Assembly (NCBI RefSeq): GCF_004154955.1
Contig: NZ_CP011524.1
Coordinates: 3,100,001 to 3,164,000 of the forward strand
Source of the DNA: Intestinimonas butyriciproducens
Lineage (GTDB): Bacteria > Bacillota > Clostridia > Oscillospirales > Oscillospiraceae
DNA: 64,000 bases
Direction: 5' to 3'
Below the pieces are notes generated by a model. It was not told the DNA's origin, searched no databases, and was given only the letters and a program-made list of their open reading frames with translations. Of the stretch, positions 9,334-27,608 are shown piece by piece (positions within the stretch are counted from its first letter, which is position 1; the number at the start of each line of letters is the position of its first letter). The translations under genes were made by a program, and so were the position numbers.

Positions 9334-10302
9334 TCAATCGCCGCAGAGGTGGCAGGCAACGAAGTGGCCGGGGGAAACTTCTTTCAAAACGGGAGCCTCC
9401 TGGTGGCACCGCTCCTGGCAATGCTCGCAGCGGGCGGCAAAGCGGCAGCCGGGCTTGGGATCCACGGGGCTGACCACCTCGCCCTTGATGACCTTAATCT
9501 CCTTGTTGCGCATGGAGATATCCGGCTCCGGAATGGCGGACAGCAAAGCTTGGGTGTAGGGATGCACAGGCTTTGCGAACAGCTCGTCGGAACTGGTGAG
9601 CTCCAGGCACTGGCCAAGGTACATAACCATGATGTTATCAGAGATGTGCTTGACAACGCTCAGGTCATGGGTCACGAACATATAGGTCAGGCCCATGTCA
9701 TCCTGCAGGTCCATCAGCAGGTTGAGGATCTGTGCCTGAATCGAGACATCCAGAGCGGAAACAGGCTCGTCGCAGACGATGAACTTGGGGTTGACGGACA
9801 GCGCACGGGCAATGCCGATACGCTGACGGCGACCGCCGTCCAGCTCGTGGGGATATGCTGTAGCATAGCGCCGGGCCAGACCGACCACGTCCATCAGATG
9901 TGCAGCGCGGTTAAAGATTTCGCGCTTCTTGGGCAGCGTCTTGTTGATGATCATGTACTCGGCAATGATCTCAATGACGGACTTGCGGGGATCAAGACTT
10001 GCGTACGGGTCCTGGAAGATAATCTGCAGTTCCTGACGCATTTTCTTCATCTGCCTGGTATTGTACTTGGTAATATCATCGCCATTATACAGGATCTGTC
10101 CGGAAGTGGGCTCAATCAGGCGCAGAATGGTGCGACCCAGCGTGCTCTTTCCGCAGCCAGACTCGCCGACCACGCCGATGGTCTCGCCGGCGTATACTTT
10201 CATGTTGATACCGTCGACTGCGTGCAGGAAGGATTTGTCGCCTACCTTAAAATACTTTTTCAGGTCTACGGTCTCAATCAGAGGGATTCTCTCTTCTGCC
10301 AT
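9334..10302 (-). CDS. dppF: Peptide ABC transporter ATP-binding protein DppF/OppF
   Basis: This 322-residue ATPase pairs with DppD to power peptide uptake. Walker A is GESGCGKST, the Q-loop is IIFQDPYASLDP, Walker B is FIVCDEPVSALD, and the C-terminal cysteine cluster (CRFAARCEHCQERC) is typical of OppD/F proteins. The ABC signature reads LDGGRRQRIGIARAL instead of the usual LSGGQ. The strongly conserved Ser is Asp, so the partner subunit may supply the better signature. The ATG has AAGGAGGAC upstream and starts 3 bp after the dppD stop. It is the last gene of the dpp operon. Confidence 0.93.
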   Translation of the reverse strand: MAEERIPLIETVDLKKYFKVGDKSFLHAVDGINMKVYAGETIGVVGESGCGKSTLGRTILRLIEPTSGQILYNGDDITKYNTRQMKKMRQELQIIFQDPYASLDPRKSVIEIIAEYMIINKTLPKKREIFNRAAHLMDVVGLARRYATAYPHELDGGRRQRIGIARALSVNPKFIVCDEPVSALDVSIQAQILNLLMDLQDDMGLTYMFVTHDLSVVKHISDNIMVMYLGQCLELTSSDELFAKPVHPYTQALLSAIPEPDISMRNKEIKVIKGEVVSPVDPKPGCRFAARCEHCQERCHQEAPVLKEVSPGHFVACHLCGD

Positions 10303-10305
10303 AGC

Positions 10306-11295
10306 TTAGTCCTCCTTTTCCTGGTGAAAGAGATGGCAACGGATGGAGTGCGTGCCATCGGTATAGACCTCCGGAGGTACCTCCTTGCAGATCTCCATGC
10401 ACTTGCCGCAGCGCGGTGCAAATTTGCAGCCCTTAGGCAGATTGGTGGGATCCGGCATCAACCCAGCGATGGGCTGCAGACGGGTCGTTTTCGACTTGAG
10501 ATTGGGCAGAGAGGCAAACAGACCGTCTGTGTAGGGGTGGTGCTTGGCGTGGGTAAAGATATCCTCAGCGGTGCCGAGCTCGATGATCTCACCGGCGTAC
10601 ATAACAGCCACATTATCGCAGGTCTGCGCCACGATACCCAGGTCATGGGTGATCATAATCATGGAGGTGCCCAGACGGTCACGCAAATCGCGGATCATCA
10701 TCAGCACCTGTGCCTGAATGGTAACATCCAGGGCGGTGGTGGGCTCGTCTGCGATCAGCAGATCGGGCTCGCAGGACAGCGCAATAGCAATCACGACACG
10801 CTGACGCATGCCGCCGGAGAACTGATGGGGATACTCGGACTTTCTGGCAGGGGGAATACCCACCAGGGTCAGGGTTTCATCGACGCGTGCCTCGATCTCC
10901 TCCTTGGAGCGGCCCGCCTCGTTGTGGACTTGCAGCGCCTCGGCGATCTGCTCGCCCACGGTCAGCACCGGGTTCAGGGAGGTCATGGGATCCTGGAAGA
11001 TCATGGCGATCTTATCACCGCGGATCTTGCGCATATGTGCCTCCGGCAGATCTACGATGCTCTCGCCCTCGAAGGTGATGGAGCCGGAAGTGATTTTGCC
11101 GGTACGCTCGGGCAGAAGGCGCATGAGCGTCAGTGCCAGCGTGGTTTTACCAGCGCCGGTCTCGCCCACCAGACCCAGCGTGGCCCCCTTTTCCAGAGAG
11201 AGAGTGACGTCGTTGACGGCGTACACAGTCTCCAAGTCGGTTTTGTAGATGACGCTCAGATCCTTAATGTCTAACATCTTTTCTGTGTTACTCAT
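10306..11295 (-). CDS. dppD: Peptide ABC transporter ATP-binding protein DppD/OppD
   Basis: This 329-residue ATPase has Walker A GETGAGKTT, Q-loop MIFQDPMTSLNPV, signature FSGGMRQRV, Walker B LLIADEPTTALD and the OppD/F C-terminal cysteine motif (CKFAPRCGKCMEIC). It forms the cytoplasmic motor with DppF. The gene lies 24 bp after dppC, with AAAGGAAT as ribosome site. Its signature motif is normal, in contrast to the altered one in DppF. Confidence 0.95.
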   Translation of the reverse strand: MSNTEKMLDIKDLSVIYKTDLETVYAVNDVTLSLEKGATLGLVGETGAGKTTLALTLMRLLPERTGKITSGSITFEGESIVDLPEAHMRKIRGDKIAMIFQDPMTSLNPVLTVGEQIAEALQVHNEAGRSKEEIEARVDETLTLVGIPPARKSEYPHQFSGGMRQRVVIAIALSCEPDLLIADEPTTALDVTIQAQVLMMIRDLRDRLGTSMIMITHDLGIVAQTCDNVAVMYAGEIIELGTAEDIFTHAKHHPYTDGLFASLPNLKSKTTRLQPIAGLMPDPTNLPKGCKFAPRCGKCMEICKEVPPEVYTDGTHSIRCHLFHQEKED

Positions 11296-11319
11296 GATGA
11301 TAATTCCTTTCTGCCGGCA

Positions 11320-12228
11320 TCAACTCTTCAGACGTGGGTCCATAGCGTCGCGCAGGCCATCACCCAACAGGTTCACGGAGAAAGCAGTCAGAACGATGGC
11401 CAGTGCGGGGAACAGCACCAGCAAAGGAGCACGCAGCATATCAACACGGGCACTGGACAGCATGGAGCCCCACTCAGGTGCGGGGGCAGGCAGGGACAGT
11501 CCAATGAAGCTTAGGGTGGACTGATAGATGACCAGGCTGGAGACATTCAGGGTCACGTTGACCAGGATGATGCCCAGCGTGTTGGGGATGATATGGCTGA
11601 TGATGATACGGGCAGAACTGGATCCGCCGGCGCGGGCAGCCTCAACATACTCCTGGTCGACCAAATTCAGAACGCCGGAACGAACCAGACGGACATAGTT
11701 TGTGAAGTATGCCAGGGTCATTGCGATGATCAGCACGGGGATGCTGGAGCCCAGGGCGGCCACGACCACCATGGTGAACAGCAGATCGGGGATAGACATG
11801 AAGATGTCCAGAGCACGCATGATCAACATATCGACCTTGCCGCCGAAGTAGCCGGCGATAGCGCCCAGCGTGCAGCCGAACAGGCAGGAGCTGATGGAAG
11901 ACGCAACTGCCACCAACAGCGAGTTACGGGCGCCATGCACCAGACGGGACAGAACGTCACGGCCATAGCTGTCGCAGCCCAGAGGATGCTCAGAGGACAT
12001 GGGGGCCAGCTTGTTGTCGGCGATCTGGACAACACCAGCCTCATAACTGGCGATAACGTCCGCAAAAATGACGACCAGAATAATGCAGATCAGCAGAAAC
12101 AGACCGATCATTGCGCCCCTATTCTTTTTCAGTCGGCGAAGGATCTCTTTGGCCTGACTGGGACGCTTGAAGTTGATATCCTCGCCATCGAGCATATTGC
12201 TGGCAGGACAAGTATAAGTTTTAGCCAT
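11320..12228 (-). CDS. dppC: Peptide ABC transporter permease DppC
   Basis: The permease is 302 residues from the preferred ATG at 12226-12228, which has AGGGAGG nine bases upstream. A GTG at 12237 overlapping the dppB stop is possible, but its ribosome site would be too close. One N-terminal helix (NRGAMIGLFLLICIILVVIF) is followed by the OppC-type domain with the PLGCDSYGRDVLSRLVHGAR motif. The inner-membrane coupling loop is EAARAGGSSSARIIISHIIP. It pairs with DppB to form the channel. Confidence 0.94.
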   Translation of the reverse strand: MAKTYTCPASNMLDGEDINFKRPSQAKEILRRLKKNRGAMIGLFLLICIILVVIFADVIASYEAGVVQIADNKLAPMSSEHPLGCDSYGRDVLSRLVHGARNSLLVAVASSISSCLFGCTLGAIAGYFGGKVDMLIMRALDIFMSIPDLLFTMVVVAALGSSIPVLIIAMTLAYFTNYVRLVRSGVLNLVDQEYVEAARAGGSSSARIIISHIIPNTLGIILVNVTLNVSSLVIYQSTLSFIGLSLPAPAPEWGSMLSSARVDMLRAPLLVLFPALAIVLTAFSVNLLGDGLRDAMDPRLKS

Positions 12229-12233
12229 CGAGA

Positions 12234-13172
12234 TCACCCTCCCTTACTGTACTTGGCCCGGATACGCGGGTCAATGAACGCATAGATCACGTCTACGCCG
12301 ATCATCAGCAGCGTGAAGCAGATGGACACCATAACGGCGCAACCAATGATCATGGGCTCATCCTTCGTGCTGATGGACTCAACGATCAGAGATCCGACGC
12401 CCGGGATGGAAAACAGCTGCTCAGTGGTGACCATGCCGGCCAGCAGGCAGCCGAAACGCATACCGATGGAGGTGACCACGGGCAGCAGCGCGTTCTTTAG
12501 AGCGTGCTTCCAGATAACCGTGCGCTCGGCAACGCCCTTGGCGCGGGCGGTGCGGACATAGTCCTGACGAATGGCCTCCAGCATGGAGGACTTGGTGAAA
12601 CGCAGATAGGCAGACAGCTCACAGATCGTGGCTGCAATAACCGGCAGTACATAGTGCTTCGCTGATTTCAGGCCGAAGGATGGGAACCAGTTCAGCTTCA
12701 AAGCGAAGATGTACATAAGTAGGATACCGACAACAAAGCTAGGCACGGCAGCCAGGAAAAAGGCGATCATCGTGGGGATGGTGTCCATCAGCGAATTCTG
12801 TTTCACTGCTGACAAAATACCCAACGGGACGCCTATGCTTATCGATAGTATAAGAACTAAAATGGCAAGACGCAAAGTGACCAAAAACCGGGGCCAAAGT
12901 TCATCAAAAACGTCCAACTTGGTAGAGTAGGACTGACCAAAGCTGCCCTTGGTGACGATATCTTTCAAGTAATTAAACCAACGGACAACAACCGGATCAT
13001 TATAGCCCAGCTCTTCGTTCATTGCCTCGACCTCCGCCGCATTAGCGTTGGGTCCCAGGATCATACGACCGGGGTTACCGGGCGTAATACTCATAACAAT
13101 GAAGATGATCAGGGTAACACCAAGCACGGTGGGGATCAGGAACAATAACCGCTTGATAATATATCGATGCAT
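12234..13172 (-). CDS. dppB: Peptide ABC transporter permease DppB
   Basis: The 312-residue permease has the DppB/OppB layout. It begins with the helix IIKRLLFLIPTVLGVTLIIF, continues with the SLGYNDP-like periplasmic segment, and carries the EAA loop YVRTARAKGVAERTVIWKHA. The end (DVIYAFIDPRIR) is the classical DppB terminus. GAAAGGAAGG precedes the ATG. It is separated from dppA by about 170 bp containing a hairpin, which may set the higher level of the binding protein. Confidence 0.95.
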   Translation of the reverse strand: MHRYIIKRLLFLIPTVLGVTLIIFIVMSITPGNPGRMILGPNANAAEVEAMNEELGYNDPVVVRWFNYLKDIVTKGSFGQSYSTKLDVFDELWPRFLVTLRLAILVLILSISIGVPLGILSAVKQNSLMDTIPTMIAFFLAAVPSFVVGILLMYIFALKLNWFPSFGLKSAKHYVLPVIAATICELSAYLRFTKSSMLEAIRQDYVRTARAKGVAERTVIWKHALKNALLPVVTSIGMRFGCLLAGMVTTEQLFSIPGVGSLIVESISTKDEPMIIGCAVMVSICFTLLMIGVDVIYAFIDPRIRAKYSKGG

Positions 13173-13262
13173 GCTTTCCTTCCTTTCTAACGGAAGATCT
13201 TCAGTAAAAACGTGTGTGAATAAAGGTGCGCAACATCCCTGCGGATATTCAGAATAGAAGTT

Positions 13263-13296
13263 GTGTGCAGGCGACTTTCTTCAGCCACCTGCACAC
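13263..13296 (-). promoter_or_regulatory. Intercistronic hairpin between dppA and dppB
   Basis: A near-perfect 14-bp stem (GTGTGCAGG...CCTGCACAC) with a six-base loop lies just after the dppA stop. No T-run follows on the minus strand, so it is more likely an mRNA-stabilising or attenuating hairpin than a full terminator. Such structures commonly keep binding-protein mRNA more abundant than permease mRNA. Confidence 0.6.
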
Positions 13297-13345
13297 GACT
13301 CGTCACTAAATAACGTCCTTAGTTGAAGCGAATCAGATGCGCCGA

Positions 13346-14929
13346 TTACGCCTTCCAGCTCCAGTCATAGACACGATAACTGGTTGGGACCGCGATAGCA
13401 TTCAGATCCTTGTTGTAAGCAGCGCAGAAAGGAATGGTGATGACGGGCGTCAGAGTATGGGTATCATAGTAAGCGTTATACAGTTCAGTGTAGATCTCGA
13501 TACGCTTCTCCTCGTCAGCGGTGGAGGCACCTTCCTCCAGCCACTCATCGAACTTCTCGGACAGGTCGTTAAACTTGCCGGAAGGACCATCGTAGACGCA
13601 GTTTTTGATGCCCACAGCGCTGGAAGAGCTCTGCTGCTCGAAGTTGTTGAAATCGTAGTTACCGCAGTCATACGCCATAGCCAAGTCGTACTCCTGCGCG
13701 ACCAGACGGTCACCGGCCACGGAGTAGTCCTGAACGACCAGCGTGGAGTGGATGCCAGCAGCCTCCAGCTGAGCGTGGATCGCAATGGCATAGCTCTCGT
13801 TACGGCCGGCAGCGGCGATAAAGTCACCGAGCTGAATTCCATCGGGATAACCGGCATCCGCCAAGAGCTGCTTCGCCTTCTCCAGATCGAAGGGGATGGG
13901 GTTCTTCAGGGAGTCAGCAGCGGGAGCCGCGGCAGCATAGTTGGGGTTGATGTACATATAGGTGGGAGTGCCGTAGCCATCGCAGACCAGCTTGTTGACG
14001 CCGTCACGGTCAATGGCGTACATGATGGCCTCACGGACCAAGTCATTCTGCAGAATCGTGCCAGCGGTCGGGGACTCGATGTTGATGCAGAAGGTCATGA
14101 CTTCGTTAGACTCCTTCTCAACACAGGTGAACTTGTCGGTAGACTTGATGTCCTCCCAGTAGGAGATGGGGACGACCATGTAATCGACTTCGCCATTCTG
14201 CAGAGCGGTGATAGCGGAGGTATCATCCTCGATCACGTTCCAGACGATCTTATCGATCTTGGCCCTGCCGCGGTAGTAATCCTCGAAAGCAACGGCACTC
14301 CAAGAGGTCTTGGGATTGTAGTTGTCTTCATCCCACATGTAGGGGCCAGTACCAGCCTTATTGGCGACCTTACCAAAGTTGTCGCCCTGCTCGGTAACTT
14401 CCTTCTGAGACAGGATCTTCACCTTGTGAAGCATGTGGCCGATGGGGGAGAAGGACTGATTCATAACGATCTTAACGGTGTGCTCATCGACCTTCTCGAC
14501 GTGGTCCAGAGGACGGACGTAAGAGGCCTGCTTGGGGCTGGCCTGAGCTAGGTCATAGCTGAAGACAACGTCATCAGCGGTCATGGACTCGCCATTGTGG
14601 AACTTGACGTCCTTTCTCAGGGTAACAATGTACTCGGTGGCATCGTCGTTGGCCTCGATCTTCTCAGCCAGACGCAGATCGTAGCCACCCTCGGCCTCAT
14701 TTAAATCATACAGGCCCTCATAAATGTTTTCGAAAACGGTGTACTCGTGGGTGTTGGTGGTTTGGTTGGGGTCACTGGTGGTCAAGAAGCCGGTGTTGCG
14801 AAGCGTAACAATGTTCTCGCTCGCATCGCTTCCCTGTTCACCGCCGCCGCCGCTGCCGCTGCCGCCGCAGCCAGCCAGAACAGCGACCAGCATCAGAGCG
14901 GACATGAGTAGAGAGATAAACCTTTTCAT
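13346..14929 (-). CDS. dppA: Peptide-binding lipoprotein DppA (family 5)
   Basis: The 527-residue protein has a lipobox (VAVLAGC, Cys 21) and a Gly/Ser linker, then the family 5 solute-binding fold. The signature region is LAEKIEANDDATEYIVTLRK followed by VKFHNGESMTADDVVFSYD. The length is normal for DppA/OppA. It captures peptides or related small molecules outside the cell for DppBCDF. GGAGGAGG precedes the ATG. It is the first gene of the operon and has its own promoter with an operator-like palindrome. Confidence 0.94.
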   Translation of the reverse strand: MKRFISLLMSALMLVAVLAGCGGSGSGGGGEQGSDASENIVTLRNTGFLTTSDPNQTTNTHEYTVFENIYEGLYDLNEAEGGYDLRLAEKIEANDDATEYIVTLRKDVKFHNGESMTADDVVFSYDLAQASPKQASYVRPLDHVEKVDEHTVKIVMNQSFSPIGHMLHKVKILSQKEVTEQGDNFGKVANKAGTGPYMWDEDNYNPKTSWSAVAFEDYYRGRAKIDKIVWNVIEDDTSAITALQNGEVDYMVVPISYWEDIKSTDKFTCVEKESNEVMTFCINIESPTAGTILQNDLVREAIMYAIDRDGVNKLVCDGYGTPTYMYINPNYAAAAPAADSLKNPIPFDLEKAKQLLADAGYPDGIQLGDFIAAAGRNESYAIAIHAQLEAAGIHSTLVVQDYSVAGDRLVAQEYDLAMAYDCGNYDFNNFEQQSSSSAVGIKNCVYDGPSGKFNDLSEKFDEWLEEGASTADEEKRIEIYTELYNAYYDTHTLTPVITIPFCAAYNKDLNAIAVPTSYRVYDWSWKA

Positions 14930-14999
14930 TTTTCCTCCTCCTTAAATTTGAATCCCGTCCATATATGTACCACAGTACATGCTGGTTGGTCACAAGCGA

Positions 15000-15029
15000 A
15001 TTATATACTTGTATATACAGCATTGTCAA
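15000..15029 (-). promoter_or_regulatory. dppA promoter with GTATATAC operator in the spacer
   Basis: On the minus strand TTGACA (15024-15029) and TATAAT (15000-15005) stand 18 bp apart. GTATATAC (15011-15018) lies inside the spacer, flanked by CTT and a partial CAAG. The palindrome fits the HutC-type GntR consensus GTxTAxAC, and its position would block RNA polymerase. The same octamer occurs at four other promoters in this window. Confidence 0.8.
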
Positions 15030-15435
15030 GTGGAACAAGCCACTGTTTTCAAAAATTGTCTGTTTCGACAAAGTTACCAACAAAAATATGGACGTATCGG
15101 CCAAAGGCTCGGATAAAATTTCTTTATTTGGAAGTCTCATTATCGTCTGAACCTGTCTTCACCCTATCCGTAGCCACCGGATATTTCGGAACAGTCTCGT
15201 GGCCGCTTGCCACCTTGCTCACCATATTGCGGATTGAAATAACTACCCCCAAAAAGAGCTGCAGACGGTCATGACAGAGATACGGCAAAACCCGCAAAAG
15301 TACAAACTTTCTGCGTAAAGCAAAACACGGTGCAGCCCTTACAACCATGAACTATACCGTATCCTACATGAAAACGTCGCTATTGGTCTGTGCCAAAGCA
15401 GGACTTCACTTAAAAATATGGATCAGGCCAGCGGC
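15030..15435. other. Intergenic stretch between dppA promoter and ridA-like gene
   Basis: About 400 bp with no supported gene. A short open frame on the minus strand (15124-15348) has no recognisable domain and no good ribosome site. The region may hold gene debris. Confidence 0.45.
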
Positions 15436-15822
15436 TTACACACCGGCGACACAGGTGATCTCGAACAGGTAGGGCTCGGCAACGGTGGGAGCCACGACGG
15501 TGTAGCGGGCGGGGCCCACATCCATGTTCAGGAAGAAGCGATCCCACACCTCGTTGGCGATGGCGCGGTCCTCACGCTTGGCGATGAAGATCTGGCAGAA
15601 CAGAACCTTCTCCAGACTGGAGCCGGCAGCTTCCAGAACGTTCTTCATGTTGATAAAAGCCTGCTCGCACTGAGCTTCCAGACCCTCCTTCAGGACTTCG
15701 TTCTCGTCCTCACCGACCATACCCGAGACGAACACCAGGTTGCCATACTTGATGGCCTGGGAGACGTTGTGGGTGGGAGTGGCAGCCAGGGGAGTATAAA
15801 CCTTTTCCTTCTTGAATTCCAT
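15436..15822 (-). CDS. RidA (YjgF/YER057c/UK114) family protein
   Basis: The 128-residue protein has the RidA fold marks. HNVSQAIKYGNLVFVSGMVG is near the start, QAFINMKNVLEAAGSSLEKV is in the middle, and a short end (LFEITCVAGV) follows. RidA proteins hydrolyse reactive enamine/imine intermediates made by PLP enzymes and dehydratases. The catalytic Arg of true RidA normally lies near GPARYTVV, which is present. It follows the aconitase X small-subunit gene by 23 bp with AAAGGAAG upstream. It probably clears an unstable product of that dehydratase. Confidence 0.9.
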   Translation of the reverse strand: MEFKKEKVYTPLAATPTHNVSQAIKYGNLVFVSGMVGEDENEVLKEGLEAQCEQAFINMKNVLEAAGSSLEKVLFCQIFIAKREDRAIANEVWDRFFLNMDVGPARYTVVAPTVAEPYLFEITCVAGV

Positions 15823-15845
15823 AGTGGTACTTCCTTTCAGTTGAA

Positions 15846-16280
15846 TTATTTATCTTCGGCCGGTACCAGGATCTCCACAGTACCGTTGATGCCGTCGAGT
15901 CTGATGTAATCGCCGTCATGGATTTCCACACAGGGATCGCAGTCGGCAGGGAAATCGGCGACACAGGGACGTCTGGTGTTGAAGATGGCAGTGCCGCACT
16001 TGGAGTCCATCGTGGTGAAGACGTAGCCGCTGGGGCCGACGCCGTTGTACTCGCTGTTGCGGAACATATCGGACCAGCCCAGAGAGCCGCGGCTGCAGGG
16101 CAGCACAATGATTTTGCCGGCAAAGCTGTCGCCATAGTGGACGTTATCCTTTTCGGTCACCACGCCGGTCTTCACATCAGCGCCATTCCAACCGACGATG
16201 CTGTCGGGGCAGACGAAAGCATAACCTTCTACCACAGGGCCCCAGGCAGGACGGCCCCGGATAATCTTATTCTTACTCAT
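15846..16280 (-). CDS. Aconitase X swivel-domain subunit (AcnX small subunit)
   Basis: The protein has 144 residues from the ATG at 16278-16280 and matches the DUF126 swivel domain. It opens with IIRGRPAWGPVVEGYAFV, contains GKIIVLPCSRGSLGWSDMF with the conserved Ser-Arg-Gly, and has GTAIFNTRRPCVADFPA. It completes the active site of the large subunit, whose gene it overlaps by 8 bases. Bacterial AcnX pairs include cis-3-hydroxy-L-proline dehydratase; archaeal ones act on phosphomevalonate. The substrate here is not decided by sequence. Confidence 0.9.
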   Translation of the reverse strand: MSKNKIIRGRPAWGPVVEGYAFVCPDSIVGWNGADVKTGVVTEKDNVHYGDSFAGKIIVLPCSRGSLGWSDMFRNSEYNGVGPSGYVFTTMDSKCGTAIFNTRRPCVADFPADCDPCVEIHDGDYIRLDGINGTVEILVPAEDK

Positions 16281-17592
16281 ATCTCCTCTTAACCTCCCAA
16301 TAACCGCTGATGGCAGCGTCAATGACCTGCTCATCAGAACCGTAGTAGATTGGGCAGTCCCGCTCATCCTTGCTGCCGTTGCACAGCTTGAAGGAGGACA
16401 GGCCGAGGGACTTGGCCCCCTTTGCCACGTTGATCGTGCGGAGGATGCAGCCGCTGGTCAGGATCTCCACGCCCCAGTCCTTCAGGTCCTGGATGATGTG
16501 GGCCTGCTCGGCCATAGCGTACTGGGCAATGTTGGTGAACACGCAGAAGCGGACGCCTTTCTTCACCTTTCTGCCGTTCATGTAACGCCAGATATTGATC
16601 AGCTCCTCGGCGGAGCAGTTGGGGCAGCCGATCTGCAGATAGTCGGCCGGGCCGGATTCCTTGTGGCAGACCTCATCCCAATAAGTCTGCAGGATCTCGT
16701 TGGTGATGGTAAACTCCGCCACAGGCTCGTGGCCACCCATAGCCATCTCATAGGTCTGCGCCTCGGGGGATACACCCACGATCAGGCACAGCTCACAGCC
16801 GCTGGTCACGGCCAGAGCGGTGAAGAACGTCTTCAGCTTGATCAGGTCAGGCCGCTCGAAATCGCCGCAGATGACGGGGACGGCATTGGGGGCCAAGCGA
16901 CGGCCCACAGCAGCGCCCAACAGATCCCAGTCGGTCTTGTCCTTGGTATCACAGGCCACGTGGAACACGTGAGTGCCGTGGCGATTCTCGGGCAGGTGCA
17001 GGCCCCACTTGGGAGCTCGACCGCAGATTGCGGCGCAGAAAGTGGTGTTGCCGCCGCCGCCGTAGCCGCGGGCGCCCAGGATGGAGTTGCTGTAGAGCAC
17101 GTTGCTGGACTCGGTGGTGACGAAATACTCGCCCATCACAGGCAGCCATCCGGCCAGATAGGGGGCGCAGGTGGAGCCGATCATCACGCCGCGGTCAGCC
17201 GCGTCAGAGAGGATCTGGCGGTTGTTCTCATAGAACTCCTTGGTCTGCTGAGTCCACTGCCACTGGAACGTGTCGCAGCAGTGCACGTCATCCATGACGT
17301 AAGTGCTTTCGTTGAAGCTGTTGAAGGTGGCTGGGTCCAAACCTGGGCATTTTAGCTTGGTCTGCCAGTCGTGATAGCCCATGGCTAGGATGTCAGGCCG
17401 ATCCAGATTGCCATCGGGGAAGTCAGCCGGCTCGCAGGTGGAGCCGCAGCACAGATGAGCCTTGGTGATGGGCACCAGCTCCTCGGCGCCCAAGATTTGT
17501 GCATAGTCGATAATCTTCTGCAGAGCAACCTGCTTGGCAGCGCCGAACTCGCCGTCGAGCATGCGCTGCTCGTAGGGAGTCAACCGAATCAT
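16273..17592 (-). CDS. Aconitase X catalytic subunit (AcnX large subunit)
   Basis: The protein has 439 residues from the ATG at 17590-17592, which has GAGAGGAG upstream. It begins with RLTPYEQRMLDGEFGAAKQV, typical of AcnX. Candidate Fe-S cysteines are in HLCCGSTCEP, in the C-terminal half at IGCPNCSAEE, and in TSGCILRTINVAKGAK. AcnX enzymes dehydrate small hydroxy acids; bacterial forms are known cis-3-hydroxy-L-proline dehydratases. With a RidA protein and a peptide transporter next to it, use of a hydroxyproline-like amino acid from peptides is a reasonable guess. The split into two genes matches one known AcnX layout. Confidence 0.9.
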   Translation of the reverse strand: MIRLTPYEQRMLDGEFGAAKQVALQKIIDYAQILGAEELVPITKAHLCCGSTCEPADFPDGNLDRPDILAMGYHDWQTKLKCPGLDPATFNSFNESTYVMDDVHCCDTFQWQWTQQTKEFYENNRQILSDAADRGVMIGSTCAPYLAGWLPVMGEYFVTTESSNVLYSNSILGARGYGGGGNTTFCAAICGRAPKWGLHLPENRHGTHVFHVACDTKDKTDWDLLGAAVGRRLAPNAVPVICGDFERPDLIKLKTFFTALAVTSGCELCLIVGVSPEAQTYEMAMGGHEPVAEFTITNEILQTYWDEVCHKESGPADYLQIGCPNCSAEELINIWRYMNGRKVKKGVRFCVFTNIAQYAMAEQAHIIQDLKDWGVEILTSGCILRTINVAKGAKSLGLSSFKLCNGSKDERDCPIYYGSDEQVIDAAISGYWEVKRRYE

Positions 17593-17660
17593 ATCGTGCA
17601 ATCTCCTCTCGTAGTTGGTTTGTGATTTTATGTACGATTGTGTGCAACCTACGTATGCTG

Positions 17661-17714
17661 GTATATACAGGTTGCCTTGTAAGTCTATCATAGATGCATT
17701 TATCTAAAAGTCAA
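17661..17714 (-). promoter_or_regulatory. acnX promoter with downstream GTATATAC operator
   Basis: On the minus strand TTGACT (17709-17714) and TATGAT (17687-17692) are 16 bp apart. GTATATAC (17661-17668) lies about 20 bp after the -10, near the expected transcript start and 69 bp before the acnX ATG. This geometry suits repression by a HutC-type GntR protein. The racemase promoter at 23.5 kb has the same arrangement. Confidence 0.75.
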
Positions 17715-17847
17715 GACATTTTTTGAGGGTAAGGGACATTTGACGGGCAATCGCAGGCCAAAAATTTGGAATATTTTTTGGCAAGACTGCACAATTTGCC
17801 GCGACAGGATGATTTAAAATGCGGCTTGACTGTTCACACCCAACGAG

Positions 17848-18789
17848 CCAACTTGTATACATAAGGAAATGTCACAAAAATGCTAAGAAGAGGAAAACCA
17901 ACGAAAATTGCGATTGGTAACGGTCAGCATGGTCTGGCCTACAAGCAGATGATCATGAAGACGTTCCCCGAGAGCGAGTATGTGGATGTGGGCTCCTTCG
18001 ATATGTAGCCTGTCAGCTGTTATCCCGGCGTGGCAGAAATCGAGGTGGGTATCCGCAAATAGAACGCGGTGAGCCTGTGTGCCGCCATGGCACGCCAGGG
18101 GTCTGCTGCCCGTGCCGGTCTTCATCAACCCTTTCCTGAGCATGCATACCTATGAGCAGGTGCGCGATGATCTGGGCTATATGAACAACAAGGTCGTGAT
18201 CGTCAGCTCCGGCGGCAGCCCGGCCTATCCCCCCTGGGTTCCACCCATATTGCGGTGGAGGCCATGAAGGCCTGCCGTGCCGGATCCTGAAGGAGCAGGG
18301 CATCTCCTTGTCCGTTCTGAACTTCACCATCATCAAGCCCCCGGATACCGAGGCCACCTCGACCCATGCCAAGAGGACTTCGAGACCATGCCGGGCATCA
18401 AGGCCGACAACACCGACGAGAACTATTCCAAGATCGATCCCATGTGCTACAAGAAGGCGGACGAGAAGGTCATGGAGAAGTATCCCAATGTCCAGGTCGC
18501 GGGTAACTCCCTGCGTGAGGTCACTTCCGCTTGCCTGAACAACTGGCAGTGTGTCATGATGACCCGCAACGGTTGCTTTGTCTCCCGCAAGCACATGAAC
18601 CTCGAGATCTATTCCTTCGCCTCCGGTCTGATCTGGTGCCTGATGGAGGGCAAGCCCGAGCTGGAGTGCATCGACTTCGCTGCTGCTCATTCCGCCATGT
18701 GCCATACCATCCGCAATGACTGGAACCTGGTCATCACGTAAGAGGTCTGTGACGTGATGACCGGCGCCTCCGCCCGCGTGAAGCGCTAA
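17848..18789 (+). pseudogene. Fused relic of an rpiB-transketolase-KDG kinase operon
   Basis: The plus strand carries three gene pieces with stops and frameshifts. KIAIGNGQHGLAYKQM (from about 17905) matches the first ~55 residues of the RpiB at 63.2-63.6 kb. Then EVGI...NAVSLCAAMARQG, INPFLSMHTYEQVRDDLGYM and LKEQGISLSVLNFTIIKP match the C-terminal transketolase subunit at 61.4-62.3 kb. From about 18379, DFETMPGIKADNTDENYSKI to ARVKR* match the kinase at 57.9-59.0 kb. Several stops are one base from the intact codon. A shortened operator (ACTTGTATACATAAG, near 17850) precedes it. It is inactive. Confidence 0.88.
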
Positions 18790-18929
18790 ATCGGCAAAAG
18801 CCAAAACATATGAAAAGAGGACACCCGATGGGTGTCTTCTTTTTGTTGCTTGTTGAATTTTGTCGTCTGTCAAAGGCGGGTATATCTGCGACGATGCGCC
18901 GCTGGCCCAATCCTGATGTCGGGCAACGC

Positions 18930-19670
18930 TCAGATCTCCATGGTGATCTTGATCTTCTCTCCGCGGAAGATCACCTTGCTGTATTCGAAGGTGCGTCCGT
19001 CGGCGTCCAGAATCTGATCCTGCAACAGCAGCAGCGGCTGGCCGGGAAAAATGTTCAGCAGGGATGCCTCGGCTGGCTTGGCTGCCACGGACTCCAGAGT
19101 TTCCACCGCCTTGGCACGGTTCAAGCCATATGCCTGACTCAGCACAGTGCACAGTTGCTCACTGCTCAGGTCATACCGGTCAATACCGGGGCAGTAGGAC
19201 TGGGGCAGGTAGGAGATGTGGATGCTCAGCGGTTCCCCCTTCAGAATACGCAGGCGGCGGACCACATAGAAATAGGGGGCATCCAAGCCGGGAAAGTACT
19301 GGAGTATCTTCTGATCCGCGGTTTCCAGGTCGAGGGAGATCAGCTGGGTGGTGACCTCATAGCCCATCTGCTCCAGCTGTTCGCGGATGCCGGCATAGGA
19401 CAGGGAGTGTGCCACGATCTTCGGTTCGGCCACATAGGTGCCCTTGCCGGGGATACGGAACAAAAGCCCCTCCTGCACCAGCTTGGTGATGACATTGCGC
19501 ACCGTGGTGCGGCTTACTCCATAGATATGGCTCAGCTCGTTTTCCGAGGGGATCAGTTTGCCGGGCGCCCACTCCTTGGACTCCAGTTTCTGGAGGATCG
19601 ACTCCTCAATCTGGATATGTAGGGGCTTGGCATTGGTCTTGTCAAGAGCGAACAGTGTACCACATTCCAT
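18930..19670 (-). CDS. GntR-family regulator, HutC subfamily (UTRA), copy 1
   Basis: The protein has 246 residues from the ATG at 19668-19670, which has GGAGGT nine bases upstream. The N-terminal winged helix has IPSENELSHIYGVSRTTVRN and LLFRIPGKGTYVAEPK. The C-terminal UTRA ligand domain follows, with YFYVVRRLRILKGEPLSIHI and a closing EYSKVIFRGEKIKI. It is a clear paralogue of the regulator at 57.1-57.8 kb. It converges on the sugar-operon relic just as the other converges on the intact operon. The likely operator is GTATATAC, which fits the HutC consensus and occurs at dppA, acnX, racemase and rpiB promoters. The ligand is unknown. Confidence 0.93.
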   Translation of the reverse strand: MECGTLFALDKTNAKPLHIQIEESILQKLESKEWAPGKLIPSENELSHIYGVSRTTVRNVITKLVQEGLLFRIPGKGTYVAEPKIVAHSLSYAGIREQLEQMGYEVTTQLISLDLETADQKILQYFPGLDAPYFYVVRRLRILKGEPLSIHISYLPQSYCPGIDRYDLSSEQLCTVLSQAYGLNRAKAVETLESVAAKPAEASLLNIFPGQPLLLLQDQILDADGRTFEYSKVIFRGEKIKITMEI

Positions 19671-19821
19671 AAGTTTGTGACCTCCGAAAGAAAAATCAGC
19701 GTTCACCTTGCACGATACCGCAAAAGGCATAAAACAACCAACTATACGGCAATGGACAGAACAGTCATGTGTATAATTCTACATTATATTAGGGCTTGTT
19801 TGAAAAAAGGCGGAGATTGTG

Positions 19822-20277
19822 CTAAAGCAACAAAATAGCGATGGAGGCAAGATACACAAAGGCCAGGAAGGAAGCATCCGACTTGTCATATCGGGTGGCG
19901 ATTCTGCGAAACCACTTGATTTTCTGGAAAAAACACTCCACCAGATGGCGTTCTTTATACAGATGCCAGTCAACCGGCCAGGGATCGGAAACGTTGCTTT
20001 GCGGCGGGATCACATAGCTGGCCCCGTGCGCTGAGATATATTCCCGAATCGTCCGGGCACCATAGGCCCGGTCTGCCAGCACGGCACTCCCGCCGATTCT
20101 GACCTTTTTCAGCAGTTCAACAGCGTGAACCGAATCGTGGTCATTTCCAGCGGAGAGCAGGAACTCCACCGGGTTTCCCAGACCGTCTACGACAGCGTGG
20201 AGTTTTGTGTTCCACCCGCCTTTGGTACGGCCAACCGCCTTATCCGCCGTTTTTTTCCCCGCCATTTGCGCTTTCAT
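19822..20277 (-). CDS. IS5-family transposase, C-terminal frame (copy 1)
   Basis: The 151-residue second frame carries the DDE core after the first Asp. GGWNTKLHAVVDGLGNPVEF and GNDHDSVHAV come first. LADRAYGARTIREYI holds the second Asp, and HLVECFFQKIKWFRRIATRY holds the Glu and the Y-R-E-like end. It overlaps the first frame, and the run of seven A in the overlap is the likely frameshift site that makes the full transposase. Its own ATG would give a protein lacking the N-terminal domain. Confidence 0.9.
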   Translation of the reverse strand: MKAQMAGKKTADKAVGRTKGGWNTKLHAVVDGLGNPVEFLLSAGNDHDSVHAVELLKKVRIGGSAVLADRAYGARTIREYISAHGASYVIPPQSNVSDPWPVDWHLYKERHLVECFFQKIKWFRRIATRYDKSDASFLAFVYLASIAILLL

Positions 20278-20581
20278 GCACCTTTACGCAAGTGGAGTCC
20301 ATGCTCAGGTTCTCCATATCCGCGTCCGCAGACAGTGTGTGGAATACCGCTTCCAGAGTGCCGTCATCCCGCCATTTGGCGAATCGGGCGTATATAGACT
20401 GCCAAGGGCCATAGGTCTCCGGCAGCTCACGCCACTGCGCACCGCTCCGGACGATCCAGAGCATTCCGTTGAGCATGATCCGGTTATCCTTCCGGGGACG
20501 ACCCCGCTTTCCCGTTTCTTCCGGTGGCAGCAGCGGCTTGATCCGTTCCCATTGTTCTTTTGTTAATTCATATCGTTTCAT
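20240..20581 (-). CDS. IS5-family transposase, N-terminal frame (copy 1)
   Basis: The 113-residue first frame has LTKEQWERIKPLLPPE, the GRPRKDNR motif and LWIVRSGAQWRELPETYGPW, the N-terminal DNA-binding region of IS427-type transposases. It ends MDSTCVKVHESANGGEKNGG, where the first catalytic Asp lies in MDST. It reaches the second frame through a slippery A7 in GGGGAAAAAAACGG. Two-frame layout is normal for this group, so it is not a pseudogene. Confidence 0.9.
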   Translation of the reverse strand: MKRYELTKEQWERIKPLLPPEETGKRGRPRKDNRIMLNGMLWIVRSGAQWRELPETYGPWQSIYARFAKWRDDGTLEAVFHTLSADADMENLSMDSTCVKVHESANGGEKNGG

Positions 20582-20653
20582 GCTCGTAGCTTCGCATAAC
20601 TTGGTTTCTTGTGCAACTTTTATTTTTCAAACAAGGCCTAACCCCTCCTGACA

Positions 20654-20697
20654 AGCAGTTTTCCGTGGCAAGAAAAATCTTGCCACGGAAAACTGCT
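20654..20697. terminator. Perfect 19-bp hairpin after the IS
   Basis: AGCAGTTTTCCGTGGCAAG and its exact complement are separated by six bases (AAAAAT). It lies between the IS right end and the stop of the minus-strand secreted-protein gene, so it may end that transcript. No long T-run follows, and it could also be a protein-binding palindrome. Confidence 0.55.
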
Positions 20698-20733
20698 ATG
20701 AAGCTTCTTAGAAGTATACGTCTGTGGTGTTTC

Positions 20734-21279
20734 TTAGCCTACATCCACCGTAAGTCGTACGTTTTGCAGACCGGAGCCTTGGTGGCTTATGAATAGATTG
20801 TATTCATGGGTAGGGTCAACGTTAAAAGACTTTGAGACAGGAGCAGTGCTGTTATAGGCCAGCGAGAAATAATCGGAAATCAACTGCTCATCTTTGTCAT
20901 AAATCGAAACGTTCACATCCGATTTGCTCGGGTCCTGTGAATCGGTGAAAGTAACTGTGACTACACCAGTTTCATCACTTTCAAATGTCAGTCCAGTAAC
21001 CAAGGTGGTATTGCTTGTACCCGGATAAGGATTAGCAGGGACACCCCTCACCCATCCGCTAAAAACATTTCTGTCAGCGGTTGCCAGCATAGAGATAGGA
21101 CTCTGAGGATACCGATGATACTCGGTTCCAGGAATACACATAGACGTATCGACCTGGCTCCAATCAATACCAAAATAATAGGGGTCATCCTCAAGAGATG
21201 CGGCACTAGCGGAAACGGCCAGAGAAAGCATCATGCAGACGGCGCACAGGACACTCAGGAGCTTTTTGAACTTTTTCAT
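20734..21279 (-). CDS. Secreted protein of unknown function between two IS copies
   Basis: The 181-residue protein has a clear signal peptide (KKFKKLLSVLCAVCMMLSLA, predicted cut after SASAA). The mature part is acidic and Thr/Ser-rich, with SDETGVVTVTFTDSQDPSKS and a C-terminal beta-rich stretch ending VRLTVDVG. This resembles a small beta-sandwich, but no family is recognised. The ATG has AAGGAGAT upstream. It is the only gene between two same-orientation IS5 copies, so it may be the cargo of a composite transposon. Confidence 0.7.
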   Translation of the reverse strand: MKKFKKLLSVLCAVCMMLSLAVSASAASLEDDPYYFGIDWSQVDTSMCIPGTEYHRYPQSPISMLATADRNVFSGWVRGVPANPYPGTSNTTLVTGLTFESDETGVVTVTFTDSQDPSKSDVNVSIYDKDEQLISDYFSLAYNSTAPVSKSFNVDPTHEYNLFISHQGSGLQNVRLTVDVG

Positions 21280-21591
21280 TATGATATCTCCTTATTCTCG
21301 TTTGGGAAATGAATCCTCATGGATGAACGGTACTGGGATACTTGTGCTACGGAGTTTGATTTGCTGAATCTTCTGACGGCCTCACCGCTTTTTAGTCTAT
21401 AGGGAAAGCCGCGGACCGTCAAATTTCTACCCCATTGGACTCCCCTCCGATCCTCACCGCCCGTCGGCGGGCCATTGGCGTATTTGTGTCCCAAGCTGGG
21501 ACAGAACTTGAAGCGCCCTATTTATGCTCTCATCCAATAAAACGATTTTCTGCGAAAAGTGCAACGGGCTTTTTTCAAAAGATTTTATTTA
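21280..21591. other. Upstream region of the secreted-protein gene
   Basis: About 310 bp with no supported gene. It should hold the promoter of the minus-strand secreted-protein gene. I did not find a clear -35/-10 pair. Confidence 0.4.
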
Positions 21592-22077
21592 GGCCTTGTT
21601 TGAAAAAAGATAGAGAATGTGCCAAAGCAACAAAATAGCGATGGAGACAAGATAAACGAAGGCGAGAAAGGAAGCATCCGACTTGTCATATCTGGTGGCG
21701 ATTCTGCGAAACCACTTGATTTTCTGGAAAAAACACTCCACCAGATGGCGCTCCTTATACAGATGCCAGTCAACCGGCCGGGGATCGGAAATGTTGCTCT
21801 GCGGCGGGATCACATAGCTGGCCCCGTGCTCTGAGATGTATTCCCGAATTGCCCGAGCGCCATAAGCCCGATCTGCCAGTACAGCACTCCCGCCGATTCT
21901 GACCTTTTTCAGCAGTTCAACAGCGTGAACCGAATCGTGGTCATTTCCAGCGGAGAGCAGGAACTCCACCGGGTTTCCCAGACCGTCTACGACAGCGTGG
22001 AGTTTTGTGTTCCACCCGCCTTTGGTACGGCCAACCGCCTTATCCGCCGTTTTTTTCCCCGCCATTTGCGCTTTCAT
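21589..22077 (-). CDS. IS5-family transposase, C-terminal frame (copy 2)
   Basis: This is the same DDE core frame as in copy 1, with ADRAYGARAIREYISEHGAS and the Glu region HLVECFFQKIKWF. A base change removes the stop used in copy 1, so this frame is 162 residues and runs through the IS end by three bases. It needs the frameshift from the upstream frame to make full transposase. Confidence 0.88.
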   Translation of the reverse strand: MKAQMAGKKTADKAVGRTKGGWNTKLHAVVDGLGNPVEFLLSAGNDHDSVHAVELLKKVRIGGSAVLADRAYGARAIREYISEHGASYVIPPQSNISDPRPVDWHLYKERHLVECFFQKIKWFRRIATRYDKSDASFLAFVYLVSIAILLLWHILYLFSNKA

Positions 22078-22438
22078 GCACCTTTACGCAAGTGGAGTCC
22101 ATGCTCAGGTTCTCCATATCCGCGTCCGCAGACAGTGTGTGGAATACCGCTTCCAGAGTGCCGTCATCCCGCCATTTGGCGAATCGGGCGTATATAGACT
22201 GCCAAGGGCCATAGGTCTCCGGCAGCTCACGCCACTGCGCACCGCTCCGGACGATCCAGAGCATCCCGTTTAGCATGGTCCGGTTATCCTTCCGGGGGCG
22301 GCCCCGCTTCCCCGTTTCTTCCGGTGGCAGCAGCAGCTTGATTCGTCCCCATTGTTCTTTTGTTAGTTCATATCGTTTCATGCTATTAGCTTCGCATAGC
22401 TTGGTTTATTGTGCAACTTTTATTTTTCAAACAAGGCC
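21592..22438 (-). mobile_element. IS5-family (IS427-like) insertion sequence, copy 2
   Basis: The element is 847 bp with ends GGCCTTGTTTGAAAAA and a matching right end, flanked by TA. It differs from copy 1 at only scattered bases, mostly in the last third of the transposase. The two frames are intact. Confidence 0.9.
22040..22381 (-). CDS. IS5-family transposase, N-terminal frame (copy 2)
   Basis: The 113-residue first frame differs from copy 1 by a few residues (for example WGRIKLLLPPE for WERIKPLLPPE). It ends at the same A7 slippery run. Both frames look functional, so at least one copy may still transpose. Confidence 0.88.
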   Translation of the reverse strand: MKRYELTKEQWGRIKLLLPPEETGKRGRPRKDNRTMLNGMLWIVRSGAQWRELPETYGPWQSIYARFAKWRDDGTLEAVFHTLSADADMENLSMDSTCVKVHESANGGEKNGG

Positions 22439-22498
22439 TAGTTATTTTACATGATTTCTCAGCCGGATTCAAGTAATTTTTCGAAAAATAGCGCAGAG

Positions 22499-22924
22499 CT
22501 ATCCATTATCATTAAACGCACAGAGACTCCACCGAGTCCGCTGTGCGTTTTTCTTTACCTCGCTGCCGGTCACATCGAGAGCCACCAGGTTGGTCTTGCT
22601 GGCCTCGTTTCCCTGAACGGCGGGCATATTGACGGCGCTTACCGTGCCATAGATATCCAGCTTCGGCTCATAGGTCTTGTTATCGGAGCCCTGTCCGATG
22701 ATCATACTGGCGGGGTGGATGTTAGAGGTGCTGGCAGATGTGGCGGTGATCTTGGAGTCCTTGTCGATGGTGACGGCCTTCTGAATGTCCAGCGAGCTGT
22801 AGAGGGTCACGTTATCCTGCAACGTAATGGTCTGGCCTTCCTTGAACGTCTCAATGGTGCCACTCGGCTTGGTGAATGAAGGAACGATCTCCCTTGCCCC
22901 TGCTGCGGAGCTTTCGTATCCCAC
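22499..22924 (-). pseudogene. Fragment of a secreted or surface protein
   Basis: The minus-strand frame of 141 residues contains PSGTIETFKEGQTITLQDNV and SSLDIQKAVTIDKDSKI. This resembles the repeated beta-strand turns of surface or pectate-lyase-like proteins. It has no signal peptide, no start context and a sudden end, and its first part overlaps the ParB relic on the other strand. It is probably an internal fragment left by rearrangement next to the IS. The family is uncertain. Confidence 0.45.
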
Positions 22925-23170
22925 CCATGATGAGAAACGGCGGTTCCTTGAAGCGATGGACTATTCGCAGAACACGCCATCATTGTCACAGGTACAGCGG
23001 CTCAAAAAGCTCGGCCGCTAGGGCAAATGCACGCAGGACGCTATGTTTCCGTCATGTCTGAGGAAAAGAAACGCGAACTTGACCGCATAACCATCATCAG
23101 AAAGTATTTTCCCAAGTCCTACACACCAATGTAAATGCAGCAGACCATTATCAAACTGCTGGAAGCATGA
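22885..23170 (+). pseudogene. ParB-like partition protein relic (conjugative-element type)
   Basis: The plus strand reads LAPAAELSYPTHDEKRRFLE, AMDYSQNTPSLSQVQRLKKL, then a stop. After frame changes it shows matches to the region normally reading KLTEDVMFAIMSEEKK and the C terminus PKSYTPKQMEETIIKLLEAWQ (here KSYTPM...QQTIIKLLEA*QKKRTRQ). This is the C-terminal half of the ParB protein carried by Tn1549/CTn-type integrative conjugative elements. It is broken by stops and lacks the N-terminal nuclease-like domain. It shows that a conjugative element once occupied this block. Confidence 0.7.
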
Positions 23171-23516
23171 CAGAAAAAACGAACGCGCCAGACAGTTCAC
23201 GTTCGTTCCCCCAATACAAAATTTGCAACCGGGACCCATCTTTTTCTCGCTGTCGATTCAATCTATTGGGGGACGCGAACTCAAGGCTTAACCTGTTTAA
23301 CCTGAACGCTGCAATAAGAGGATGGCTGACAATCTCCGTCACAGACTTCATAGCCCAGGAAAGGAGCGGACAGCCAGTTGCTCCTCTTATTGTAGCTTTG
23401 GCACAAGACGGACAAAACCCTCGGCTGGCTGCCGAGGATTCCAACCAAATTATATTGTAATAGAGAAGGGAGGATTGGCGAAATCATAGAAAAGCGGCGG
23501 GCCGGGAAAATCATGC

Positions 23517-23570
23517 TTGTCAATTCCCGGGATTTGTGTATAAATTATAGTTATAGAGCTTTGTATATAC
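23517..23570 (+). promoter_or_regulatory. Racemase-gene promoter with GTATATAC operator
   Basis: TTGTCA (23517-23522) and TATAAA (23539-23544) are 16 bp apart. GTATATAC (23563-23570) lies about 18 bp after the -10 and 58 bp before the ATG. The layout copies that of acnX and suggests shared HutC-type control. Confidence 0.7.
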
Positions 23571-23627
23571 AGGTACAGGTGTCTGCCCGGCAGTGACCTG
23601 TGCGGAAAATGAAAAGGAGATGTCTTC

Positions 23628-24350
23628 ATGGAAAAAAAGCCCAAGATTTGTATTCTGCGCTGGGAGGAGGGCCAGGTCCTGCCCGCCCAGCTGCAGCTGG
23701 AGTCTCTGCCCGGCAACAGCACCAACCCCGCTTCCTATCCCTTCGAGGTGATGATGCTGCGCGTCAAGGGCGCCAATATGGATACCATCGAAGAGAACCC
23801 CTGCCAGGAGATGCTGGATAAGTTTATCGTCGTGTGCAAGGAGCTGGCGGCTCAGGGCGTGAAGGCCATCACCACCAGCTGTGGCTTCACCGCATACTAT
23901 CAGGAGGGCCTGGCCGCCGCCGTGCCCGAGCTGGTGTTCACCAGCGCCCTGCTACAGGTCCCCTTCATCCAGACCATGGTGGGCCCCAACCGCAAGGTGG
24001 CCGTGCTGACCGCCAACAAGTACCACCTGCGCGAGGAGCATCTGCAGCGCGCCAAGATCGTGGACCGCGATCACCTGGTGATCCTGAGCCTGCACGATCA
24101 GCCTGAGTGGGGCCGCATCTACACCCACCCCAACGAGGAGTTCAATCTGGAGGCCGTCACCGACGAGGTGGTTAGCGTTGTGCGCAAGGGTCTGGAGGAG
24201 AACCCCGACATCGGCGCTGTGGTGCTGGAGTGTACCGACCTGCCTCCCTATTCCGCCCGTATTCGTGACGAGCTGGGTATCCCCGTGTTTGATATCAATA
24301 CCATGATCAGCTATGTGGCTTTGTCTCTGAACGAGTACAAGATGTTCTAA
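23628..24350 (+). CDS. Aspartate/glutamate racemase-superfamily protein
   Basis: The 240-residue protein has the two pseudo-symmetric halves of the Asp/Glu racemase superfamily, each with its catalytic Cys. The first is in KAITTSCGFTAYYQE and the second in AVVLECTDLPPYSARI. LEENPDIGAVVLECTD is the usual motif around the second Cys. Relatives racemise aspartate, glutamate or hydantoins, or act as maleate isomerase or decarboxylase. The AAAGGAGAT site precedes the ATG. It stands alone but shares an operator with the acnX and dpp genes, so it probably serves the same catabolic route, perhaps by changing the configuration of an amino acid. The exact substrate is unknown. Confidence 0.85.
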   Translation: MEKKPKICILRWEEGQVLPAQLQLESLPGNSTNPASYPFEVMMLRVKGANMDTIEENPCQEMLDKFIVVCKELAAQGVKAITTSCGFTAYYQEGLAAAVPELVFTSALLQVPFIQTMVGPNRKVAVLTANKYHLREEHLQRAKIVDRDHLVILSLHDQPEWGRIYTHPNEEFNLEAVTDEVVSVVRKGLEENPDIGAVVLECTDLPPYSARIRDELGIPVFDINTMISYVALSLNEYKMF

Positions 24351-24656
24351 ATGACGGCACTGTGGGGATCACATCCGGTGGTGGTCCCCGCTGTCTGCTT
24401 TTTTCGGCGCACCGTGTCCCAGCTTTGCTGCCTATGGGGGGAGAGACCGTGGAGGAAGCGGTGCCCGCTGAAGGGAAGAGAGATCAAAGGAGAGCGCGCA
24501 AGCGAGAACGTGCAAAGCGTGCGGCCGATCATACCACCGGCGTTGTGTCCTACGCCCACATCGACAACGGTATGTCTCTGAGCAGAAAGAATGTCGATTT
24601 TTCTGAGGTCCAGTCAAATCTGCAAAAGCTTTGCTTCAACTTCAACCGGATAACGT

Positions 24657-27294: not shown

Positions 27295-27339
27295 TGGAGC
27301 TGCTACCCAGATTTGAACTGGGGACCTCATCCTTACCAA
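27295..27339 (-). repeat. Displaced tRNA-Thr 3' half, copy B (att site between the two elements)
   Basis: On the minus strand it reads TTGGTAAGGATGAGGTC, then the T-arm CCCCAG TTCAAAT CTGGGT, AGCAGC and TCCA. The 17 bases GACCTCATCCTTACCAA (plus strand) are identical to the intact tRNA-Thr at 35 kb and span the anticodon stem-loop, the likely crossover. Its T-stem matches copy A rather than the intact gene. Confidence 0.85.
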
Positions 27340-27481
27340 TTATTTTTTGGGTGATGCACCCTATCGTAACCTTTCGTATGCTTACGCCTTTTAATGCCCG
27401 AAAGCCCTTGAGATACGGGCACTTTCTTCTATCTTCTGCTGACATCTGACGTATGCTTTTGCATACGTTTTTTTCTTGCTG

Positions 27482-27502
27482 GTTACGACTTTGGTTGCGA
27501 CT
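27482..27502 (+). repeat. Paired 12-bp-spaced repeats, left-end arm-type sites
   Basis: GTTACGACTTTGGTTGCGACT contains TTRCGACT twice, 12 bp apart. The same 21 bp with two mismatches occurs at 34972-34992, inside the other end of the element. The position about 150 bp inside att copy B fits integrase arm-binding sites. Confidence 0.55.
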
Positions 27503-27608
27503 CGCTCAGAGACAACGCCGCCTGACCTCATCCTTTTTTGCGGTAGCTTCTTCGTGCTGAGTGGATGGACGTCACTCACATTCACATAGCAAGGTACTTT
27601 GAAATGCC

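Follow-up and report, generated by a model that had tools for sequence, protein, structure and literature searches.

The segment at 17.88 to 18.79 kb of the window (the whole 64,000-nucleotide stretch of the Intestinimonas butyriciproducens genome that was analyzed) is what remains, in its original place, of an orthologous six-gene operon. It lies in the slot between the aconitase X genes (acnX) and a regulator gene, regR. The segment holds decayed pieces of rpiB, of the gene for the C-terminal transketolase subunit (tktC), and of a KDG-type kinase gene, in that order. We put at nearly nine in ten the probability that this operon of a gene island decayed where it stood, and that regR was kept for the remaining targets in the island. 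In-place decay of one island operon is an ordinary process that is unusually clearly seen here, with intact relatives in the same slot that allow a lesion-by-lesion reading. The case shows how a local regulator can persist after the operon beside it is lost.

The window contains a second, diverged operon that is intact (Table 1). We compared 17.4 to 20.0 kb with the window by blastn. The rpiB piece (17903 to 18037) matched 63604 to 63473 on the opposite strand, with 74% identity (E 7e-18). Two tktC pieces, 18042 to 18261 and 18283 to 18345, matched 62181 to 61962 (72%, E 1e-26) and 61699 to 61637 (73%, E 0.001), and the second half of the kinase gene, 18371 to 18787, matched 58378 to 57941 (75%, E 1e-84). 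The regulator gene, 18936 to 19590, matched 57815 to 57161 (71% of nucleotides, E 8e-81). The comparison confirms the order of the pieces given in a preliminary description of this DNA, as well as its account of the 57 to 63 kb locus as having the same gene order and convergent regulator in the opposite orientation. The intact, convergent HutC-type GntR regulator that it placed directly after the relic was also found, by Pfam. When 17840 to 19730 was searched against its own genome (one contig, 3,224,506 bases), all four matches fell in the relic or in the 57 to 63 kb locus.

Table 1. Coordinates of features in the window; L numbers are loci in related genomes (see text), and nt is nucleotide identity.
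Feature	Position	Strand	Evidence or comparison
Syntenic block: oppFDCBA, ridA, acnX pair, operon slot, regulator, racemase	9324-24360		Shared with L118 and L047, blastn
oppF, oppD, oppC, oppB (oligopeptide-type ABC transporter)	9334-13172	-	Pfam; 88.8% nt to L118
oppA-type solute-binding protein	13346-14929	-	Pfam SBP_bac_5; 85.4% nt to L047
Operator TTGTATATACAG before oppA	15009-15020		CTGTATATACAG at matching place in L047 and L048
RidA-like protein	15436-15822	-	Pfam; 89.1% nt to L047
Aconitase X small (swivel) subunit, open frame	15846-16367	-	Pfam; start probably near 16282
Aconitase X large subunit, open frame	16273-17691	-	Pfam; 90.0% nt to L047; start probably near 17593
Weaker operator-like site TGGTATATACAG before acnX, two mismatches	17659-17670		Imperfect in relatives too
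Decayed operator of lost operon, TTGTATACATAA	17853-17864		Perfect palindrome in L046 and L047
Relic of rpiB leader and 5' part	17880-18039	+	87.3% nt to L047
Relic of tktC, first piece	18039-18261	+	88.3% nt to L047
Relic of tktC, second piece	18252-18377	+	78.5% nt to L047
Relic of KDG-type PfkB kinase, second half	18373-18790	+	90.2% nt to L047
Operon 3' flank, terminator-like hairpin and T run (hairpin read by eye)	18790-18860	+	Still alignable to L047
regR, intact HutC-type GntR/UTRA regulator, convergent to relic	18930-19730	-	Pfam
3.7-kb insertion relative to L047	19790-23507		Two IS4/5-family transposase copies and a 181-aa ORF
Operator TTGTATATACAG before racemase gene	23561-23572		Perfect palindrome in L047, two mismatches in L048
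Asp/Glu-racemase-like protein	23628-24350	+	Pfam just above cut-off; 91.0% nt to L047
regI, GntR/UTRA regulator of intact operon, convergent	57099-57821	+	Pfam
Diverged intact operon: rpiB, tktN, tktC, TAL_FSA-like, DHDPS-like aldolase, PfkB KDG-type kinase	57939-63606	-	Pfam, NCBIfam
Perfect operator TTGTATATACAA before intact operon	63678-63689		Pattern search
Second operator TTGTATATACAT upstream of intact operon	63840-63851		Pattern search

To find orthologs, we searched genome contigs with two exact peptide patterns derived from the kinase alignment. This gave 21 kinase-bearing loci, although records very near our own genome may be missing from the contig collection searched. All six operon genes and the convergent regulator were present in three of the 21: L046 (Oscillospiraceae SIG496, SVLV01000010.1), L047 (Candidatus Flavonifractor merdavium, DWXF01000006.1, which also carries L118), and L048 (uncultured Flavonifractor sp., NZ_CALWOJ010000003.1, which also carries L120). 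These islands resemble the window in gene order, in the convergent regulator, and in having ridA and acnX beyond rpiB. They differ from it in that all seven frames (six operon genes plus regulator) are open in each. L047 and L048 additionally keep the opp and racemase genes in position; in L046, neither was found by blastn beside the operon within the stretches available. L049 has the last three operon genes, followed by a convergent regulator of lower similarity (about 50% amino acid identity), with less similar rpiB and tkt genes beyond, and the L045 locus is cut off by the end of its contig. Because the island block is syntenic with L118 and L047, the relic occupies the slot where relatives keep the whole operon. 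The block from 9339 to 24352 is likewise syntenic with the Flavonifractor sp. loci L120 and L048, and identity across the block is 81 to 89% of nucleotides by blastn outside the relic and the regulator. A complete operon had been supposed to have once stood here, and three other assemblies do have it complete in this slot.

In the genus sample, acnX was found at E up to 1e-60 in 1 of 11 genomes, our own; of the 10 congeners, 2 reach 90% completeness with no more than 5% contamination. Among 300 family genomes, regR matched at E up to 1e-50 in three including our own, the other two at 45 and 42% identity. In a draw of equal size, the kinase matched at E up to 1e-60 in 61 of 300, with at least 73% identity in only five, own included. 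For the TAL-like protein, 400 family genomes gave matches at E up to 1e-80 in three, again including our own. These counts describe samples in which the genomes of L046 to L048 did not turn up. Five genomes with a kinase at 85 to 88% have one such kinase each, and their further matches are at 38 to 42%. Therefore, by the kinase measure, none of the five holds both operon types.

Island and core genes disagree in their similarities. Nucleotide identities between our genome and G302 were 85.0% for rpoB, 81.9% for gyrB, 90.0% for acnX, and 85.4% for oppA, figures that would by themselves fit common descent too. Those with G301 were 77.2% for rpoB, 76.4% for gyrB, and 87.7% for acnX, and between G302 and G303 they were 90.8% for gyrB and 82.1% for acnX. 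This disagreement, over few genes, favors the view that the island moved horizontally, and the lack of an acnX match at E up to 1e-60 in the ten congeners points the same way. Both observations would also suit an operon that was already decayed when a transferred island brought it in and that was never functional in this lineage. We consider that history unlikely, because L046, L047, and L048 are open in all frames and no decayed copy is known elsewhere (the relic DNA was searched against its own genome only).

The preliminary description took the relic for a mirror image of the 57 to 63 kb operon, and the like gene order, the convergent regulators, and the opposite orientation would indeed suit a decayed duplicate copied in inverted orientation. 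However, a 12-row kinase tree placed the relic inside a 100/100 clade with L045 to L049, and the own operon kinase fell outside that clade. Forcing the relic and own kinases together as sisters cost 30 log-likelihood units and was rejected (AU p 0.00035). Two other groupings absent from the best tree, relic with L047 and relic with L046, L047, and L048, were not rejected (AU p 0.25 and 0.18, respectively). The tree and the AU test cover 435 columns of the kinase piece, and the assignments of rpiB and tktC rest on identities. Every relic piece is closer to L047 (78.5 to 90.2%, over 157, 222, 121, and 418 aligned bases in the order of Table 1) than to the own operon (72 to 75%). The regulator is 93% identical in amino acids to that of L047 versus 68% to the paralog regI, and both L047 and L048 show synteny with the flanks. 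Tree and synteny rule out a duplicate, barring gene conversion that overwrote one copy across all pieces, and we give this origin hardly any weight.

Decay in place can be followed by comparing the relic with L047. The rpiB piece has lost its start codon (17901 to 17903) and has an in-frame stop at 18006 and a 3-bp insertion. The first tktC piece has a stop at 18060 and two frame shifts and the second a 5-bp insertion, for four small indels in total across the rpiB and tktC pieces. In the kinase, a 21-bp deletion at 18612/18613 removes the DRVGGGD stretch, which we take to hold the PfkB catalytic residue, and there is a stop at 18739. Three large deletions, located by mapping the pieces onto L047 coordinates, lie at the rpiB/tktC junction, within tktC, and at the tktC/kinase junction; the one within tktC coincides with a 10-bp near-repeat. 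About 16% of the L047 operon span remains alignable (918 aligned bases versus 5,696, a few of the 918 falling in the leader or counting twice at overlaps). The earlier reading of pieces fused by deletions and cut by stops was thus accurate.

The substitution pattern in the relic is also altered. Private changes in the relic kinase number 4/10/3 at codon positions 1, 2, and 3, compared with 1/2/10 in L046, 0/0/3 in L047, and 0/1/15 in L048. An even pattern alone is no proof of lost function, because the own intact kinase, on a deeper and longer branch, shows 16/14/14. With intact syntenic orthologs, inactivating lesions, and lost codon-position constraint all found, the relic belongs among decayed orthologs, as a pseudogene operon. 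Differences between the relic and L047 kinases are rich in third positions (6/11/23). The kinase dN/dS is 0.15 for relic versus L047, 0.035 and 0.010 for the intact pairs, and 0.22 for the own kinase. The value of 0.15 and the third-position excess therefore argue that the decay is younger than the split. To judge from these counts, the divergence between relic and L047 is mostly older than the decay. That the remnant is still used, for example as a small protein from the 154-codon frame at 18277 to 18741 that spans most of the kinase piece, is scarcely credible, since this frame lacks the kinase first half and the DRVGGGD stretch and starts in tktC debris, and 14 of the 17 private changes in its region are at codon positions 1 and 2.

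The regulator next to the relic has fared differently from the operon. Pfam found both a GntR winged helix and a UTRA domain in regR, as in the GntR/HutC regulators described in PMC4494728, and sites of the form GTMTAKAC precede its candidate target genes, which places it among HutC-type GntR regulators. Its 93% identity to the L047 regulator corresponds to a dN of 0.036 at a pS of 0.32; with the ragged N termini included, the values are 91% identity and a dN/dS of 0.12. In the winged-helix part, regR and the L047 regulator are identical at 62 of 65 residues, and regR and regI at 50 of 65. An eight-row regulator tree split regR, L047, and L048 from L046, regI, and the rest with a support of 92. 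By these measures, regR has evidently stayed under purifying selection.

We then mapped the putative operators. Across the 3.22-Mb genome, we found the exact 11-mer TTGTATATACA at four places: one precedes oppA, one precedes the racemase gene, and two lie at the intact operon (five matches, with one place read on both strands; a reversed control pattern gave one match). Allowing up to two mismatches from TTGTATATACAA, we found seven sites in the window versus 0.5 expected (mean of 20 first-order shuffles), namely, these four, the weaker site before acnX, the decayed site of the relic, and a site at 2719. The operator GTATATAC conforms to GTMTAKAC, the consensus of the HutC subfamily in PMC4494728, with 4 nt between GT and AC. 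The oppA and racemase operators are kept in position in L047 and L048, and that of the relic is altered. An operator precedes rpiB in L046, L047, and L048; it is perfect in the first two and has one mismatch in L048. Alignment of the relic operator with those of L046 and L047 is gapless and shows two substitutions (TTGTATATACAA there, TTGTATACATAA here). The GT-AC spacing is 2 nt in the relic instead of 4 because of these substitutions; the site was not shortened, as had been described. The sites before oppA and the racemase gene agree with the preliminary view that the regulator outlived the operon and stands among genes that share this operator. The site at 2719, which has two mismatches, lies between genes for an AraC-type regulator and an esterase-like protein, beside a NanE/ROK/DHDPS cluster.

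We suggest the following scenario. The island, 15 kb here, comprises an Opp transporter, RidA, a two-subunit aconitase X, the sugar-phosphate operon slot, a putative HutC-type repressor, and a racemase-like gene. The sugar operon decayed in place by deletions, stops, and frame shifts while the other island genes stayed open. The presumed repressor regR would have lost its site at the dead operon and been kept for its remaining targets in the island, most probably the opp, acnX, and racemase genes. The diverged operon about 40 kb away, with its own convergent regulator and the same operator, may have made the first operon dispensable. Because TTGTATATACA is common to both loci, regR and regI probably share one operator set and are likely to have shared targets. 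A further step, which the identical operator makes possible and which we put forward tentatively, is that regR was handed over and now co-controls the diverged operon, so that the two loci would form a joint regulon. Because the genome has just four exact operator sites, such cross-regulation between regR and regI would be easily testable. A limited search of the literature on decayed operons with kept regulators found nothing on this locus.

We also compared the enzymes of the intact operon with known families and structures. Its kinase is nearest to sugar-kinase and KDG-kinase NCBIfam models, all below their cut-offs, as are the NCBIfam matches of the aldolase and acnX. The nearest solved structures are 2-keto-3-deoxygluconate kinase for the kinase and mitochondrial 4-hydroxy-2-oxoglutarate aldolase for the DHDPS-type aldolase. 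The TAL_FSA-like protein (59976 to 61316; 445 to 446 aa) has a weak Pfam match (E 8e-8), a low-confidence predicted structure (mean pLDDT 43.6), and no PDB sequence match at E up to 1. TAL_FSA-like genes near split transketolase and RpiB-like genes also occur in L041, with a class-II FBP aldolase, and in L116. The own intact kinase (57939 to 59009) differs from that of L047 by a dN of 0.096 at a pS of 0.46, and L048 differs from L047 by 0.005 at 0.41; on these values, protein evolution is apparently faster in the kinase of the second operon.

The sulfo-transketolase sulfoquinovose clusters with SqwGH and SqwI, as described in PMC11659671, offer a loose parallel in which a transketolase and a sugar isomerase serve one pathway. 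The counterpart here, likened by description only, is the split transketolase beside an RpiB-type isomerase. The operon differs from those clusters in including a DHDPS-type aldolase and a KDG-type kinase. A limited search of the apulose/apiose and sulfoquinovose literature, which cannot show absence from print, found no matching cluster. This operon type, with an uncharacterized transaldolase-like protein beside a split transketolase, may encode an unnamed sugar route. In the stretch covered by 63863 to 64000 of the window and 63 to 400 of L117, a short open frame on the forward strand, with a translation of about 110 residues, follows the operator at 63840. It may be a gene fragment, and an HAD-phosphatase-like frame (named by eye) follows it.

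Mobile elements lie near the relic. The IS4/5-family transposase copies of the 3.7-kb insertion, at 19822 to 20581 and 21589 to 22381, have two frames each and are 92% identical over the 215 bases compared; the 181-aa ORF between them had no Pfam match. L047 differs in that the regulator and racemase genes are adjacent, without the IS pair. Rfam, at gathering score, gave no RNA element match within 7000 to 35000. The preliminary description had proposed looking in other genomes for an intact copy of the operon inside an integrative element. The intact copies were found in the three assemblies, but no PF00589 tyrosine integrase is present on their contigs, and two of these contigs stop no more than about 6 kb from the operon-regulator unit. 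The idea that the island may be integrative-element cargo found no support on these limited contigs. The window does have a phage-type integrase (33539 to 34921), outside the island. A 17-bp direct repeat at 27323 and 35120, the latter copy inside tRNA-Thr, bounds a 7.8-kb stretch (27323 to 35136) that contains this integrase. This stretch appears to form a small integrative element of its own, apart from the island.
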